The translations under genes were made by a program, and so were the position numbers. From Streptococcus oralis (GTDB lineage: Bacteria > Bacillota > Bacilli > Lactobacillales > Streptococcaceae), in contig NZ_CP065707.1 of NCBI RefSeq assembly GCF_016028255.1, positions 1,751,001-1,815,000 on the forward strand: a stretch of DNA of 64,000 nt, written 5' to 3'. This document shows, one piece after another, positions 47,869 through 52,670 of the stretch (position 1 is its first letter; every line of letters begins with the position of its first letter). The notes under the pieces were generated by a model that worked only from the letters and a program-made list of their open reading frames with translations, ran no database searches and was not told the DNA's origin.

Positions 47869-48912
47869 TTATAGCAAATGCGCTTCGCGCTTGTCAAAAC
47901 TTTCTTTAGCAAGATCAACCAAACGCTCGATTAGTTCTGGGTAGCTGATTCCCATATTGTCCCACAGTAGTGGATACATAGACCACTGGGTGAAACCTGG
48001 CATGGTATTGAGCTCGTTTAGGAAAATCTCGCCCTTATCCGTATAGAAGAAATCGCAACGAGAGAGACCGAGGCCACCAATCGCACGGAAGGCTGTTTCA
48101 GCATTTTGACGCATAACAGCAACCACGTCATCACTGATTTTAGCTGGAATGTCCATGGTAATCTTGTTGTCGATATACTTGGCATCATAGTCATAGAAGG
48201 CAACATCCTTGACCACTTCACCAGGAAGCGTGCTCTTGACATCGTAGTTACCCAAGAGACCAACCTCAATTTCACGCGCATTCACTCCTTGTTCTACCAA
48301 GACACGGCTGTCATATCGGAAAGCAAGTTCTAGAGCTTGACGGAGTTCCTCTTGGTTTTCAGATTTAGAAATACCGACACTGGAACCCATGTTTGATGGT
48401 TTAGTGAAGACTGGATAAGTCAACTTTTCTTCAACTTCAGCGATTTTAGAAGTTACATCATCCCCTTCGACAATGGCCACATAAGGAACTTGGGTAATCC
48501 CAGCAGACTCCAAAACACGCTTAGTAGTGATTTTATCCATAGCAAGACTTGATGACAAGATATCACAACCAACGTATGGCATTTTCAAAACTTCCAAAAA
48601 CCCTTGAACAGAGCCATCTTCTCCCATCGGACCATGAAGGACTGGAAAGACCACAGCGCCTTCTTCGTAGATGGCACTTGGTGCGATTTTCTTGTCCCAA
48701 TCAACGGTTGCATTGGTCATAAGACGATCCTCTTGACCTGGAGTCTGGCTAAATTCTTGCGTTTTGATAAAATCACCTGACTGGCTGATAAAGAAAGTCT
48801 TGACTGTGAAACGATCGTAGTTGACCGCACGCATGACACTCTCAGCTGAAAGGACAGAGACTTCACGCTCTGCACTACGCCCGCCGTATAAAAGAATAAT
48901 CGTTTGTTTCAT
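47869..48912 (-). CDS. ddl: D-alanine--D-alanine ligase
   Basis: Makes the D-Ala-D-Ala dipeptide for peptidoglycan. The 347-aa ATP-grasp enzyme has [12 protein letters not shown] at the start, [28 protein letters not shown], and the metal-binding [12 protein letters not shown] at the end. Monocistronic or linked to murF through the intervening hairpin. Confidence 0.96.
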
Positions 48913-49016: not shown

Positions 49017-49505
49017 TTACCTATCCACCACTTGAGCTTCAAAGTGAGCTGGCTTGTCGTCTACATTGGTGATGGTGATCGTGTAGGACTTGTTATTAGT
49101 TACATTAAAAACTTTTTCCCCCTGGTAACTGACAACAATTCCATCCTGGACTAAATGGATATCTTTTTGATTATTGGGTAACTCTTCATCAACATCTTCT
49201 GAATGATGGCTTCGAACAAGTTTTTGCCCTTCAACATCATAAAAAATATCGCCATGCATCTCAAACCAAACTTTTTTACCTGATAATTTAAGCTTATTAG
49301 TATCATTTTTTTTCAAGATTAATTCTGAGTAGTATTCTACATCATGTGTCCGAGGATTTACTGTAAAGTTAGCCGACTCTCCTGGTTGCAGAGTATACTT
49401 ACCAAGATTTTGTGCCCATAGATAAAATAGAAAACTAGCTGCTAGGACTACAACAAGTACTAAACTACAACCTAAATTCCAATTCGATTTTTTCGTCATG
49501 CTCAT
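49017..49505 (-). CDS. Membrane-anchored exported protein, candidate immunity or accessory factor
   Basis: A 162-aa protein with a short basic head, one transmembrane helix (about residues 12-31) and an outside-facing, beta-rich domain: [22 protein letters not shown], then alternating polar/hydrophobic strands ending [21 protein letters not shown]. Its ATG overlaps the LXG toxin stop (ATGA), so it is translationally coupled to the toxin. Position suggests an immunity protein, but an extracellular domain could only block a toxin that acts outside the cytoplasm or at the membrane. I do not recognise a family. AT-rich like the toxin's tail. Confidence 0.7.
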
Positions 49506-51133
49506 TTGTAACTCTCCTTATAGTCGTTAATTCCGTCTTGAATCATCTTAGCATCTCCTGGATTATCTCCATAATTTCCATTGATAACATTGTTTATATA
49601 TTTTATAGCATCTTTATCAGACAGCCCTTGAGCTGCTCCGGCTCCTATTTTCAAGTACTCATCACTAGATTCTAAATAACCTTTACCAACATAGCCAAAA
49701 AGATAATTTCCAAGGTAATCAGACTCCATTCCTTCTTCCCATTGTCGACCCCAAATTGAAAAAGGGTAATCTTCTCTATAAACTCGATTTTTTAGGTCTA
49801 GGGGTTTATTAGAATTAACTAAATCTATAAATGTTCCATTATCTCCAATCTTATTTCCTATAGCAATCGAACTATCAATTCTTCCATTATCACCAGGGCT
49901 TTTCCATATACTTCTACCTCTCTGAATTAATTCACCCTTTTTTACATCCTCTAAATTTTTAACATCTAATACATCGTTTCCCATATTTTGCGTTACTACT
50001 TTTATATTAATTTTTGATGTTAACGATTTGTAAAATTCTTTTTCTATATCATTCATCTTATCCTGGATTATTGGATCTTCTTTTCCCCAATCATCACCCA
50101 TCTTTTTTCTCTTCTTCCAATACTCCTCAAACGCTTCTCTATTATTATAAAACAGATAATCCTCATAAGCCTTAACGATTAGGTCTGCTTTTTCGGTCGA
50201 AATTTTATCACTCTTTTTAATTTTCTCAACCTTTTCCTGTAGTTTCTCTGGATTAGCTCTATTGGTAGCCTCCGCTTTCAATTTTTCTGTTACAACTTGA
50301 GGAAATTGTATTTGAGGATGGTGATGTACATAAGATTCTAAAATTTGGAACTCCTTATCGCTAAGTTCTTTTCCATTTTCCAACTTATCTAAGATTTTCT
50401 GGTATTCTTTATGCAAATCCTTAGTTTTCTTAGAAGAATCATATTTTGCACTCTCAATCTTCACATCCTTCATCTTTTGCACCCAGCTCATGTCCAGACC
50501 GTCCGCATAGTAGTTACCATCGCTATCGACAATGACTTTACTTAGTTGCGTAGCTCCTTTGATGGCTAAGCTAAGGACTTCTAGGCTATCGTTGAAATAC
50601 TGGGAAACCTGTGAGACAAAGAATTCTAGTTTTTCAATCTTATCATCCAAATCCTGAATACCTGACTCGATTTGAGACTTGGTATTGTAGAGGATGGTCT
50701 TCTCAGAGAAGGCTTTCCCCCAATTGAGACTAAAGAAATCTTTGATTTGATTTAACCAATTCTCCCTCGCTTGAATCTGAGCTTCTACGATAGCTAACTG
50801 CTCTTCCCTCAATTTTTTCAGTTCCTTGAGCTGGTCCAGGTCCAAATCTCCATATCCTGAGACCTGAGCATCTGCATTTTTGTAGGAGGTCAACTCTAGT
50901 TGGATATCATCTATCGCTGCTTGTAACTTCTTGATGCTGGGGATGATAATCTCTGTAAAGAGACCCTTCCCAGCTGTGTAGGCTGCTCCTGTCAGCTCAC
51001 CTGAGTCTAAAGAGAAAATCAGGTGGTCACATCCACTAGATAAGCGGTCCGTGACTTCATTTGCGACTTGGAGATTATTAGTCATGGCCTGAATCAATTC
51101 TTGGGATTCTTGTGCGCTGTATTTTACTCCCAT
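49502..51133 (-). CDS. LXG-domain polymorphic toxin, type VII secretion substrate
   Basis: A 543-aa modular toxin. Residues 1 to about 225 form the LXG domain: helical, with GELTGAAYTAGKGLF (Leu47-Thr48-Gly49) and a coiled region rich in K, E, Q. A helical linker (about 230-365) follows. The C-terminal part (about 370-543) has NKPLDLKNR, then SDYLGNYLFGYVGKG and IGAGAAQG, which resemble the polymorphic toxin type 44 (Ntox44) domain; a hidden nuclease role would be inference. The C-terminal half is visibly more AT-rich than the LXG half, as expected when toxin tails are swapped. The start overlaps the upstream helper gene by 10 nt. The Esx secretion genes are not in the window. Confidence 0.87.
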   Translation of the reverse strand: MGVKYSAQESQELIQAMTNNLQVANEVTDRLSSGCDHLIFSLDSGELTGAAYTAGKGLFTEIIIPSIKKLQAAIDDIQLELTSYKNADAQVSGYGDLDLDQLKELKKLREEQLAIVEAQIQARENWLNQIKDFFSLNWGKAFSEKTILYNTKSQIESGIQDLDDKIEKLEFFVSQVSQYFNDSLEVLSLAIKGATQLSKVIVDSDGNYYADGLDMSWVQKMKDVKIESAKYDSSKKTKDLHKEYQKILDKLENGKELSDKEFQILESYVHHHPQIQFPQVVTEKLKAEATNRANPEKLQEKVEKIKKSDKISTEKADLIVKAYEDYLFYNNREAFEEYWKKRKKMGDDWGKEDPIIQDKMNDIEKEFYKSLTSKINIKVVTQNMGNDVLDVKNLEDVKKGELIQRGRSIWKSPGDNGRIDSSIAIGNKIGDNGTFIDLVNSNKPLDLKNRVYREDYPFSIWGRQWEEGMESDYLGNYLFGYVGKGYLESSDEYLKIGAGAAQGLSDKDAIKYINNVINGNYGDNPGDAKMIQDGINDYKESYK

Positions 51134-51480
51134 GGTAGCCGATTCCTTTCCGCTATCAGTTCTTCTCTAGCTTCATCGAAAGTTCGACGAGCCTTCTTCG
51201 TTTGTTTTTCCAAGGCATCCAGTTCCTCATCTACATAAGAGTTGACCTGTCGCTGAATGGTTCTATTTTCACTTTCAATTTGCTCTATCACCTGACGAGA
51301 ATTGGGTGAGTGAGACAATAGAGTCGCCATACGATGGTGGATACTCTGGATTTCTGAGTGAAAGTGAGTTAGCTGCTGTTCATATTGTCTTTTTAGAGTC
51401 TGAAGACTTTCTGCCTTATCGTCAATCTTGACAATCTCTCGCCAAAGTTTGTAGCGCTTTTCTTCGTTCTTATCTGCCAT
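51124..51480 (-). CDS. DUF3958/DUF5082-type helper protein of the LXG cassette
   Basis: A 118-aa, almost wholly alpha-helical, charged protein with two coiled-coil stretches (about residues 20-50 and 65-112) and no signal or membrane segment. In streptococcal LXG systems, a small helical protein of this kind pairs with a DUF3130 protein and binds the LXG domain as a secretion chaperone. Between the DUF3130-like gene (3-nt gap) and the toxin (10-nt overlap), it fits that role. Exact family is from memory. Confidence 0.78.
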   Translation of the reverse strand: MADKNEEKRYKLWREIVKIDDKAESLQTLKRQYEQQLTHFHSEIQSIHHRMATLLSHSPNSRQVIEQIESENRTIQRQVNSYVDEELDALEKQTKKARRTFDEAREELIAERNRLPWE

Positions 51481-51483
51481 TCC

Positions 51484-51759
51484 TTAGTGACTCCATCTCT
51501 TAGCTTGCTCTATATCACGTTTTTCAATCCTATGAGCAATTTCTGGAAACTTATTTGCTTGGGTCAAAACAGCTGAACTAAAATCACTGACCGCCTGAAG
51601 CATTTGATTGCAGGCCTGACGTCCAGCTTCCATCCCAGCGATTTCAGAAGTATATGAAAATTCTACCTGCTGATTTTGCTTGTCACTCGTGTCATACCCA
51701 ACCAACTCATTAATAGCCGCCTCTGCTGCTATCGTACTAGATTTTATCTTTCCACCCAT
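51484..51759 (-). CDS. TIGR04197/DUF3130-type WXG100-like helper protein
   Basis: A 91-aa helical protein, first of the LXG cassette. Its layout (a helix, a turn, then AGMEAGRQACNQMLQAVSDF and a second helix ending EQAKRW) matches the TIGR04197 family of type VII effector partners. It lacks a strict WxG motif, as these LapA-type proteins do. With the next gene it should form the targeting complex that brings the toxin to the Esx channel. A good promoter lies about 40 nt upstream. Confidence 0.8.
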   Translation of the reverse strand: MGGKIKSSTIAAEAAINELVGYDTSDKQNQQVEFSYTSEIAGMEAGRQACNQMLQAVSDFSSAVLTQANKFPEIAHRIEKRDIEQAKRWSH

Positions 51760-52073: not shown

Positions 52074-52670
52074 TTACAACTCTGTCCGATTTTCAATGGC
52101 TCGTAAGAGTGTGACTTCGTCCGCATACTCTATATCTGCTCCCACGGCTAGGCCTCGTGCCAGGCGAGTGACCTTGATCCCAGCTGGCTTGAGGAGACGA
52201 GAGAGATACATAGAGGTCGCTTCCCCATCTGCTGTAGCATTGGTTGCTACGATGACCTCTGAAACCTCACTATCCATGAGACGGGTCATGAGGCTCTTGA
52301 GATTGATATCATCTGGGCTGATACCATTCATCGGAGAAATGAGTCCATGCAAGACATGATAGAGTCCGTGGTATTCTTGGATATTTTCCATAGCAGCCAC
52401 ATCGCGACTATCCTCTAGCACCAAGATGGTTGTCTGATCTCGAGTCGGGTCCGTACAGATAGAGCAAGGATCATCATCGGTCAAACGGCCACAGATGGAA
52501 CAATAGGTTAATTCCCGCTTGGCAGATAGGAGATTTTTAGCAAATTCATTGACATCGTCATCAGACATTCCAATAGTATAGAAGGCTAGGCGGGTAGCCG
52601 TTTTAATCCCGATACCCGGAAGCTTTGAATAGCTATCAATCAGCTTGGCAATAGGTGTTGGATACAGCAT
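52074..52670 (-). CDS. recR: Recombination protein RecR
   Basis: Part of the RecFOR loading path for RecA at gaps. The 198-aa protein has an N-terminal helix-hairpin-helix ([15 protein letters not shown]), a C4 zinc finger (CSIC and CSIC, about residues 57-72) and a TOPRIM domain starting [10 protein letters not shown]. Named recM in older pneumococcal annotation. It lies 10 nt after pbp2b, a linkage I recall in pneumococcus. Confidence 0.96.

Follow-up and report, generated by a model that had tools for sequence, protein, structure and literature searches.

A candidate membrane-anchored immunity protein encoded behind an LXG-type toxin with an Ntox44 tail in Streptococcus

Known LXG toxins, their immunity proteins and the Ntox44 domain

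The closest described counterpart of the locus analysed here is the TelC-TipC pair of Streptococcus intermedius, in which the LXG toxin TelC, a lipid II phosphatase, is combined with a membrane-anchored immunity protein (PMC5555719, PMC6193138, PMC9600955). TipC possesses one N-terminal helix and places the domain that inhibits TelC in the inner wall zone (PMC6193138, PMC10765036). Our cassette resembles this system in the LXG-type toxin, the two putative helper genes 5' of it and the (candidate) immunity gene 3' of it, and furthermore in the single N-terminal helix with an outward domain, which is predicted for our gene 4, and in the existence of extra immunity copies. However, the toxin tail is Ntox44 instead of the TelC domain, and the immunity folds also differ when compared by description: TipC2 consists of three helices and a seven-stranded sheet (PMC6193138), whereas the model of gene 4 is all-beta past its membrane helix. 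The TipC-like arrangement is already known in kind, and is found here with another toxin tail and another immunity fold. Compartment-specific immunity to an LXG toxin has likewise been described for EsxX of Staphylococcus aureus, which is countered by ExiAB and ExiCD (PMC12744356). Unlike the combination of Ntox44 with the single-pass gene 4 protein, EsxX is a glycine-zipper membrane toxin with polytopic outer-side partners.

Ntox44 (PF15607) was described in a 2012 survey as an all-alpha domain with the motifs DxK, GNxxxG and DxxxD, and its entry in that survey names no immunity protein (PMC3482391), whereas membrane-anchored partners recur in the present analysis. T6SS and T7SS effector surveys, profiling of the gut microbiome and work on corals have all recorded the domain, mostly under the label RNase or nuclease. 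Stony corals carry an ancient Ntox44 gene that was acquired horizontally from a bacterial source and has a secretion signal (PMC8162421), which fits an extracellular enzyme.

The cassette and its toxin

The window, i.e. the whole stretch of 64,000 nucleotides that was analysed, belongs to a 2.02-Mb streptococcal genome; among the relatives detected for gene 4, that of Streptococcus oralis DD21 is the closest (99% identity). Four minus-strand genes (Table 1) form a tight cassette with a 3-bp gap between genes 1 and 2, a 10-bp overlap between genes 2 and 3 and a 4-bp ATGA overlap between genes 3 and 4, flanked by recR (52074-52670) and ddl (47869-48912), which were both recognised by eye. A previous sequence-only reading of this DNA had proposed the order helper, helper, LXG toxin and downstream gene, and these abutting or overlapping open reading frames bear it out; gene order and toxin domain can be read directly from the computation. 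The own genome encodes the T7SSb machine, as judged by the two components searched: EssB is present and EssC scored 1,433 bits, over its cut-off. It also harbours three other LXG genes at 577-584 kb, while the toxin and gene 4 gave one match each in it.

Table 1. Features of the cassette (positions in the window; empty cells, no separate basis given)
Feature	Position	Strand	Basis
Gene 1, 91 aa, Lap1-like helper (TIGR04197/DUF3130-like)	51484..51759	-	weak profile matches; relatives 5' of LXG-type genes in L001, L005, L007
Gene 2, 118 aa, helical helper, Lap2 (DUF3958) position	51124..51480	-	only generic coiled-coil matches; relatives in L001, L005, L007
Gene 3, 543 aa, LXG-type polymorphic toxin	49502..51133	-	LXG-type head and Ntox44 tail
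LXG-type targeting head, gene 3 residues 1-228	50450..51133	-	head identity to L004, L005, L007
Ntox44 toxin domain, gene 3 residues 435-539	49517..49831	-	PF15607, E 2.8e-8
Gene 4, 162 aa, candidate exported membrane-anchored immunity protein	49017..49505	-	hydropathy, charge, AlphaFold2, family, next-gene count
Gene 4 membrane helix, residues 11-32	49410..49475	-	AlphaFold2 helix 11-32; hydropathy segment 11-29
Gene 4 outer all-beta domain, residues 33-162, GOLD/jelly-roll-like sandwich	49020..49409	-	

The helper genes resemble known families to different extents. Gene 1 reached 20.1 bits with TIGR04197 (cut-off 26) and a weaker 13.7 bits with DUF3130 (cut-off 25), both under the cut-offs, and inspection by eye found no FxxxD motif in it. 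For gene 2, only generic coiled-coil models appeared among the matches listed in Pfam and NCBIfam, all below their cut-offs, and its DUF3958-like role is based on position; its relatives occupy the equivalent position with 36-93% identity. The LXG profile (PF04740) scored 24.9 bits on gene 3 in the whole-genome scan (E 1.6e-5), just below the cut-off of 26.5, and was not listed in the Pfam search of the gene 3 protein alone. The head of gene 3 shares 66-69% identity with the heads of three relatives (L004, L005, L007), whose frames bear other tails.

The Ntox44-like tail noticed in the sequence-only reading is recognised by its profile well over the cut-off (34.5 bits against 24), and the published motifs are present as D446-K448 (DxK), G475-N476...G480 (GNxxxG) and D523...D527 (DxxxD). 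Residue conservation was taken from an alignment of 42 Ntox44 domains, in which the denominators give the domains with a residue at the respective site. D446 and K448 are found in 41/41, N476 in 42/42 and D527 in 37/37 of these domains, followed by D523 (37/38) and an acidic residue at position 472 (37/42). Among the 42 aligned domains, no column reaches 80% conservation of His or Cys; His is most frequent at a position where 23/42 domains carry it and gene 3 has Leu, and residues 435-543 of gene 3 contain zero His and zero Cys. This pattern of invariant Asp, Lys and Asn combined with the lack of conserved His and Cys fits better to an acid-based or metal-using hydrolase than to a His-based RNase. 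The structure model of the tail (pLDDT 43.7) is too low in confidence to be used, and among solved structures no good sequence match to the tail was obtained (best E 0.54).

These findings bear on the possibility that the tail is a cytosolic RNase, which the outward immunity protein would intercept at the cell surface, ahead of its passage through the membrane. RNase or nuclease labels for Ntox44, some of them given as prediction, appear in several papers (PMC9134191, PMC12165300, PMC13288982, PMC6079546, PMC8162421, PMC8913943, PMC7790226), and the strongest published statement against a target outside the membrane comes from PMC9635880, which counts Ntox44 with the nuclease domains "characterized" in Ma et al. 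2017a. However, in the 2012 survey most novel domains were presumed to be nucleases on account of their conservation patterns and of how abundant nucleases are (PMC3482391). The His and Cys counts given above also speak against an RNase, no soluble antitoxin gene that could shield the producer before export is evident in the cassette, and exported partners of unrelated families recur 3' of Ntox44 (see below). On balance we regard a cytosolic RNase as unlikely, and in our view the weak link of the sequence-only reading is its premise of a cytosolic nuclease activity for Ntox44.

Gene 4 and its relatives in Streptococcus

Hydropathy predicts one helix near residues 11-29 of gene 4, with a positive charge of 3 on its N-terminal side versus 1, and the AlphaFold2 model (pLDDT 86.2, pTM 0.74) shows a helix at 11-32 followed by beta strands only (36-161). 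At the level of predicted topology, one N-terminal membrane helix and an outward all-beta domain are confirmed, as had been claimed from the sequence, and no cytosolic topology was predicted. To consider an outward last gene as abnormal was, however, overstated, because TipC has the same topology and 30/50 next genes of the control cassettes described below carry a predicted membrane segment. Gene 4 has no Pfam or NCBIfam match over cut-off and only weak PHROG matches; DUF5412 (PF17428) is absent among its Pfam matches and gave 5% probability in a profile-profile comparison with the streptococcal partner family. The dN/dS values of gene 4 among five close relatives amount to 0.08-0.45, compared to 0.02-0.03 for the neighbouring ddl; gene 4 is coding and under constraint.

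A survey of 247 Streptococcus genomes yielded 12 Ntox44 places in 11 genomes. The next gene encodes a membrane-anchored protein at 10 of the 12 places, while the remaining two share one genome, and at one of these exceptions (L018) Ntox44 is followed by a helix-less remnant of the partner family. All nine streptococcal partners tested, including this remnant, are homologous (at least 43 bits, E at most 4.5e-14, in a set of 21 sequences). When restricted to Streptococcus loci with a partner according to the 100-bp rule given below, eight single-pass and one multi-pass protein were counted (n=9). Moreover, tail and partner distances covary (r 0.53 for 8 pairs, a value reached by 148 of 40,320 permutations), although much of this correlation stems from two close pairs, in which divergence is faster for the partner than for the tail (0.49 vs 0.26 and 0.46 vs 0.22).

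The family is confined neither to Streptococcus nor to LXG carriers. Members were found in two loci from other genera (L159, L160) and 3' of Ntox44 on a 3,132-aa RHS carrier that has a Sec-type signal. Further copies follow LXG toxins with other tails (L005, L007), and lone copies exist where the surrounding 10.6-12.5 kb contain neither an LXG head match nor an Ntox44 match (L006, L008, L009), in keeping with the known behaviour of immunity genes. The sequence-only reading had left room for gene 4 as a partner in secretion or surface display, with immunity coming from elsewhere. Membrane anchor and operon position alone would permit such a role, but the family member behind the RHS carrier with its Sec-type signal and the lone copies speak against it. 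Neither a display function nor an external source of immunity finds support in this distribution, and we regard gene 4 as a display or secretion partner as very improbable.

Some of the streptococcal Ntox44 toxin genes are broken (L023, L025, L028). In S. oralis DD21 (L001:4375-6004 / L028:102-1731), the toxin gene is split into two frames and the partner gene is still open; this locus would be a case of an immunity gene outliving its toxin. Another streptococcal genome carries a split LXG/Ntox44 gene twice, 1.1 Mb apart, with identical frames and scores (L018 and L029). At the ddl end of the locus in S. oralis CR140 (L003:590-6489), nine small genes stand in a row within a stretch that gave no Ntox44 match, two of them members of the gene 4 family, and an N-terminal helix was seen by eye in seven of the nine. 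We dropped the initial classification of this stretch as a toxin-less island, since an LXG gene with another tail (L125) appears just outside it; the row represents lone immunity-like genes, probably behind that LXG gene.

Genes behind Ntox44 and the probable site of action

For a broader comparison, Ntox44 loci were collected from 398 genomes of the phylum, 395 of the order and 398 of the class (some genomes are common to these surveys), four viral contigs, named plasmids and the streptococcal loci, which resulted in 52 loci. Left out of this number were the own duplicate (L020), a locus with the same genome and score as L018 (L029), a broken one (L036), three without an in-frame ORF (L023, L161, L175), three second views of contigs already counted (L044, L045, L048), one with toxin and partner fused in one annotated CDS (L052) and ten further Pantoea plasmids. 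By a scripted rule, the next gene within 100 bp of the Ntox44 gene was classed by its predicted membrane topology. The control was built from 78 streptococcal LXG matches, 59 of which were retrieved; the other 19 were the match in the window, 15 frames that are short or interrupted and three frames >900 aa with weak matches. We further removed one cassette bearing Ntox44 (L134), two with no next gene (L105, L107), three with a gap above 100 bp (L089, L118, L119) and three with a next ORF below 80 aa (L092, L093, L132), and kept L141, which is cut by the contig end, as single-pass.

A gene within 100 bp was found at 36 of the 52 Ntox44 loci, and it encodes a single-pass N-terminal protein in 27 cases, a multi-pass protein in four, a lipoprotein in one and a soluble protein in four. 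Among the 50 control cassettes without Ntox44, 20 soluble, 17 multi-pass, 10 single-pass N-terminal and three single-pass internal proteins were counted. Single-pass proteins or lipoproteins thus make up 28/36 versus 10/50 (Fisher p 1.7e-7), and membrane proteins or lipoproteins in general 32/36 versus 30/50 (Fisher p 0.0035), where both p values overstate the case owing to related loci within the sets and a Streptococcus-only control with several cassettes per genome. The four soluble cases comprise a 108-aa ORF of doubtful reality (L038) and three neighbours in one genus, two of which were scanned and are SufB/D genes. The 16 loci without a gene by the rule include two with a DUF5412-type gene detected by tblastn (L032, L033), one with an annotated single-pass gene (L054) and the L018 remnant; the remaining 12 are partnerless, and 7 of these have a Sec-like signal by eye.

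The partners belong to several families (streptococcal, DUF5412, enterobacterial and others unnamed) without detectable homology to one another. DUF5412 is likewise a single-pass partner directly 3' of Ntox44, in other Bacillota, with no detectable homology to gene 4, and a lipoprotein behind an RHS carrier (L043) is weakly DUF5412-like. The toxins themselves are carried by LXG heads, by the 3,132-aa RHS protein with its Sec-type signal and, in one case, next to an Hcp gene (T6SS-linked); fifteen Ntox44 proteins start with a Sec-like signal peptide as judged by eye. This recurrent coupling of Ntox44 to membrane-anchored partners is a computational observation and new as far as the literature searched shows; on sequence grounds it points to an extracytoplasmic target. 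It favours the option, already considered in the sequence-only reading, that the wall or membrane is where the toxin acts.

Exported partners would also suit a membrane-active, pore-forming tail that is neutralised at the outer face, for which EsxX with ExiCD provides a precedent (PMC12744356). However, the invariant polar residues D446, K448, N476 and D527 look catalytic, and the outer-side partners of EsxX are polytopic, compared to 27/36 single-pass partners for Ntox44. We consider a pore-former quite unlikely.

With a probability of roughly 0.75, gene 4 would be the immunity protein and Ntox44 would act outside the cytoplasmic membrane, not as a cytosolic RNase. The ribonuclease barnase is secreted, yet its inhibitor barstar is cytosolic. 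Export by Sec alone is therefore compatible with an RNase, whereas an outward partner speaks for a target on the outside. The 12 partnerless loci count against such a target, as does the possibility that an exported immunity protein works by blocking toxin entry. Binding of tail and partner, protection and the site of action are what we infer from the genomic pattern, and the following scenario is proposed. The cassette would serve as a type VIIb secretion weapon against rival bacteria, whose two helpers, by analogy with the published Lap1/Lap2 system, probably associate with the LXG head and deliver the toxin to the EssC machine. The toxin would leave the producer and arrive between the wall and the membrane of a neighbouring cell, where the Ntox44 tail, probably a hydrolase using the invariant Asp, Lys and Asn, would damage an extracytoplasmic target. 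Peptidoglycan or its lipid-linked precursor may be guessed, because such a target would be common to the Gram-positive and Gram-negative carriers. Gene 4 would act as the cognate immunity protein, anchored by its helix with the beta sandwich on the outer face, and block the tail as TipC does with TelC.

In a wider sense, Ntox44 as a whole may represent a family of envelope-acting enzymes and not RNases, delivered by T7SS, T6SS, RHS proteins or plain Sec export to a target common to Gram-positive and Gram-negative bacteria, against which several unrelated families of membrane-anchored immunity proteins evolved at the outer face; the secreted coral copies would likewise be antibacterial envelope enzymes. 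We give this generalisation about an even chance. If the partners indeed sit outside the membrane, the RNase label misdirects research to cytosolic assays, and assays directed to the periplasm or wall might bring a new enzyme activity to light. The gene 4 family and DUF5412 would then provide candidate partners for Ntox44.

Some further arrangements were seen among the loci. In three of them (L030:1827-2219, L169, L170), the gene behind Ntox44 encodes not a single-pass protein but a membrane protein for which four segments are predicted, and which may belong to a further partner family. Several Bacilli encode short Ntox44 proteins that stand alone and carry Sec-like signals, with no partner evident in the adjoining DNA (L154, L155, L156, L165, L166, L167, L171, L172, L176). 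On a Serratia plasmid (L052:2411-3226), one annotated CDS runs from the Ntox44 start into an apparent single-pass partner. Among the control cassettes, several single-pass partners show an FDEIY stretch after the helix and are presumably TipC-like. Behind one streptococcal LXG toxin (L116) lies a gene for a small predicted lipoprotein, which would be a further outward partner of unrelated appearance.
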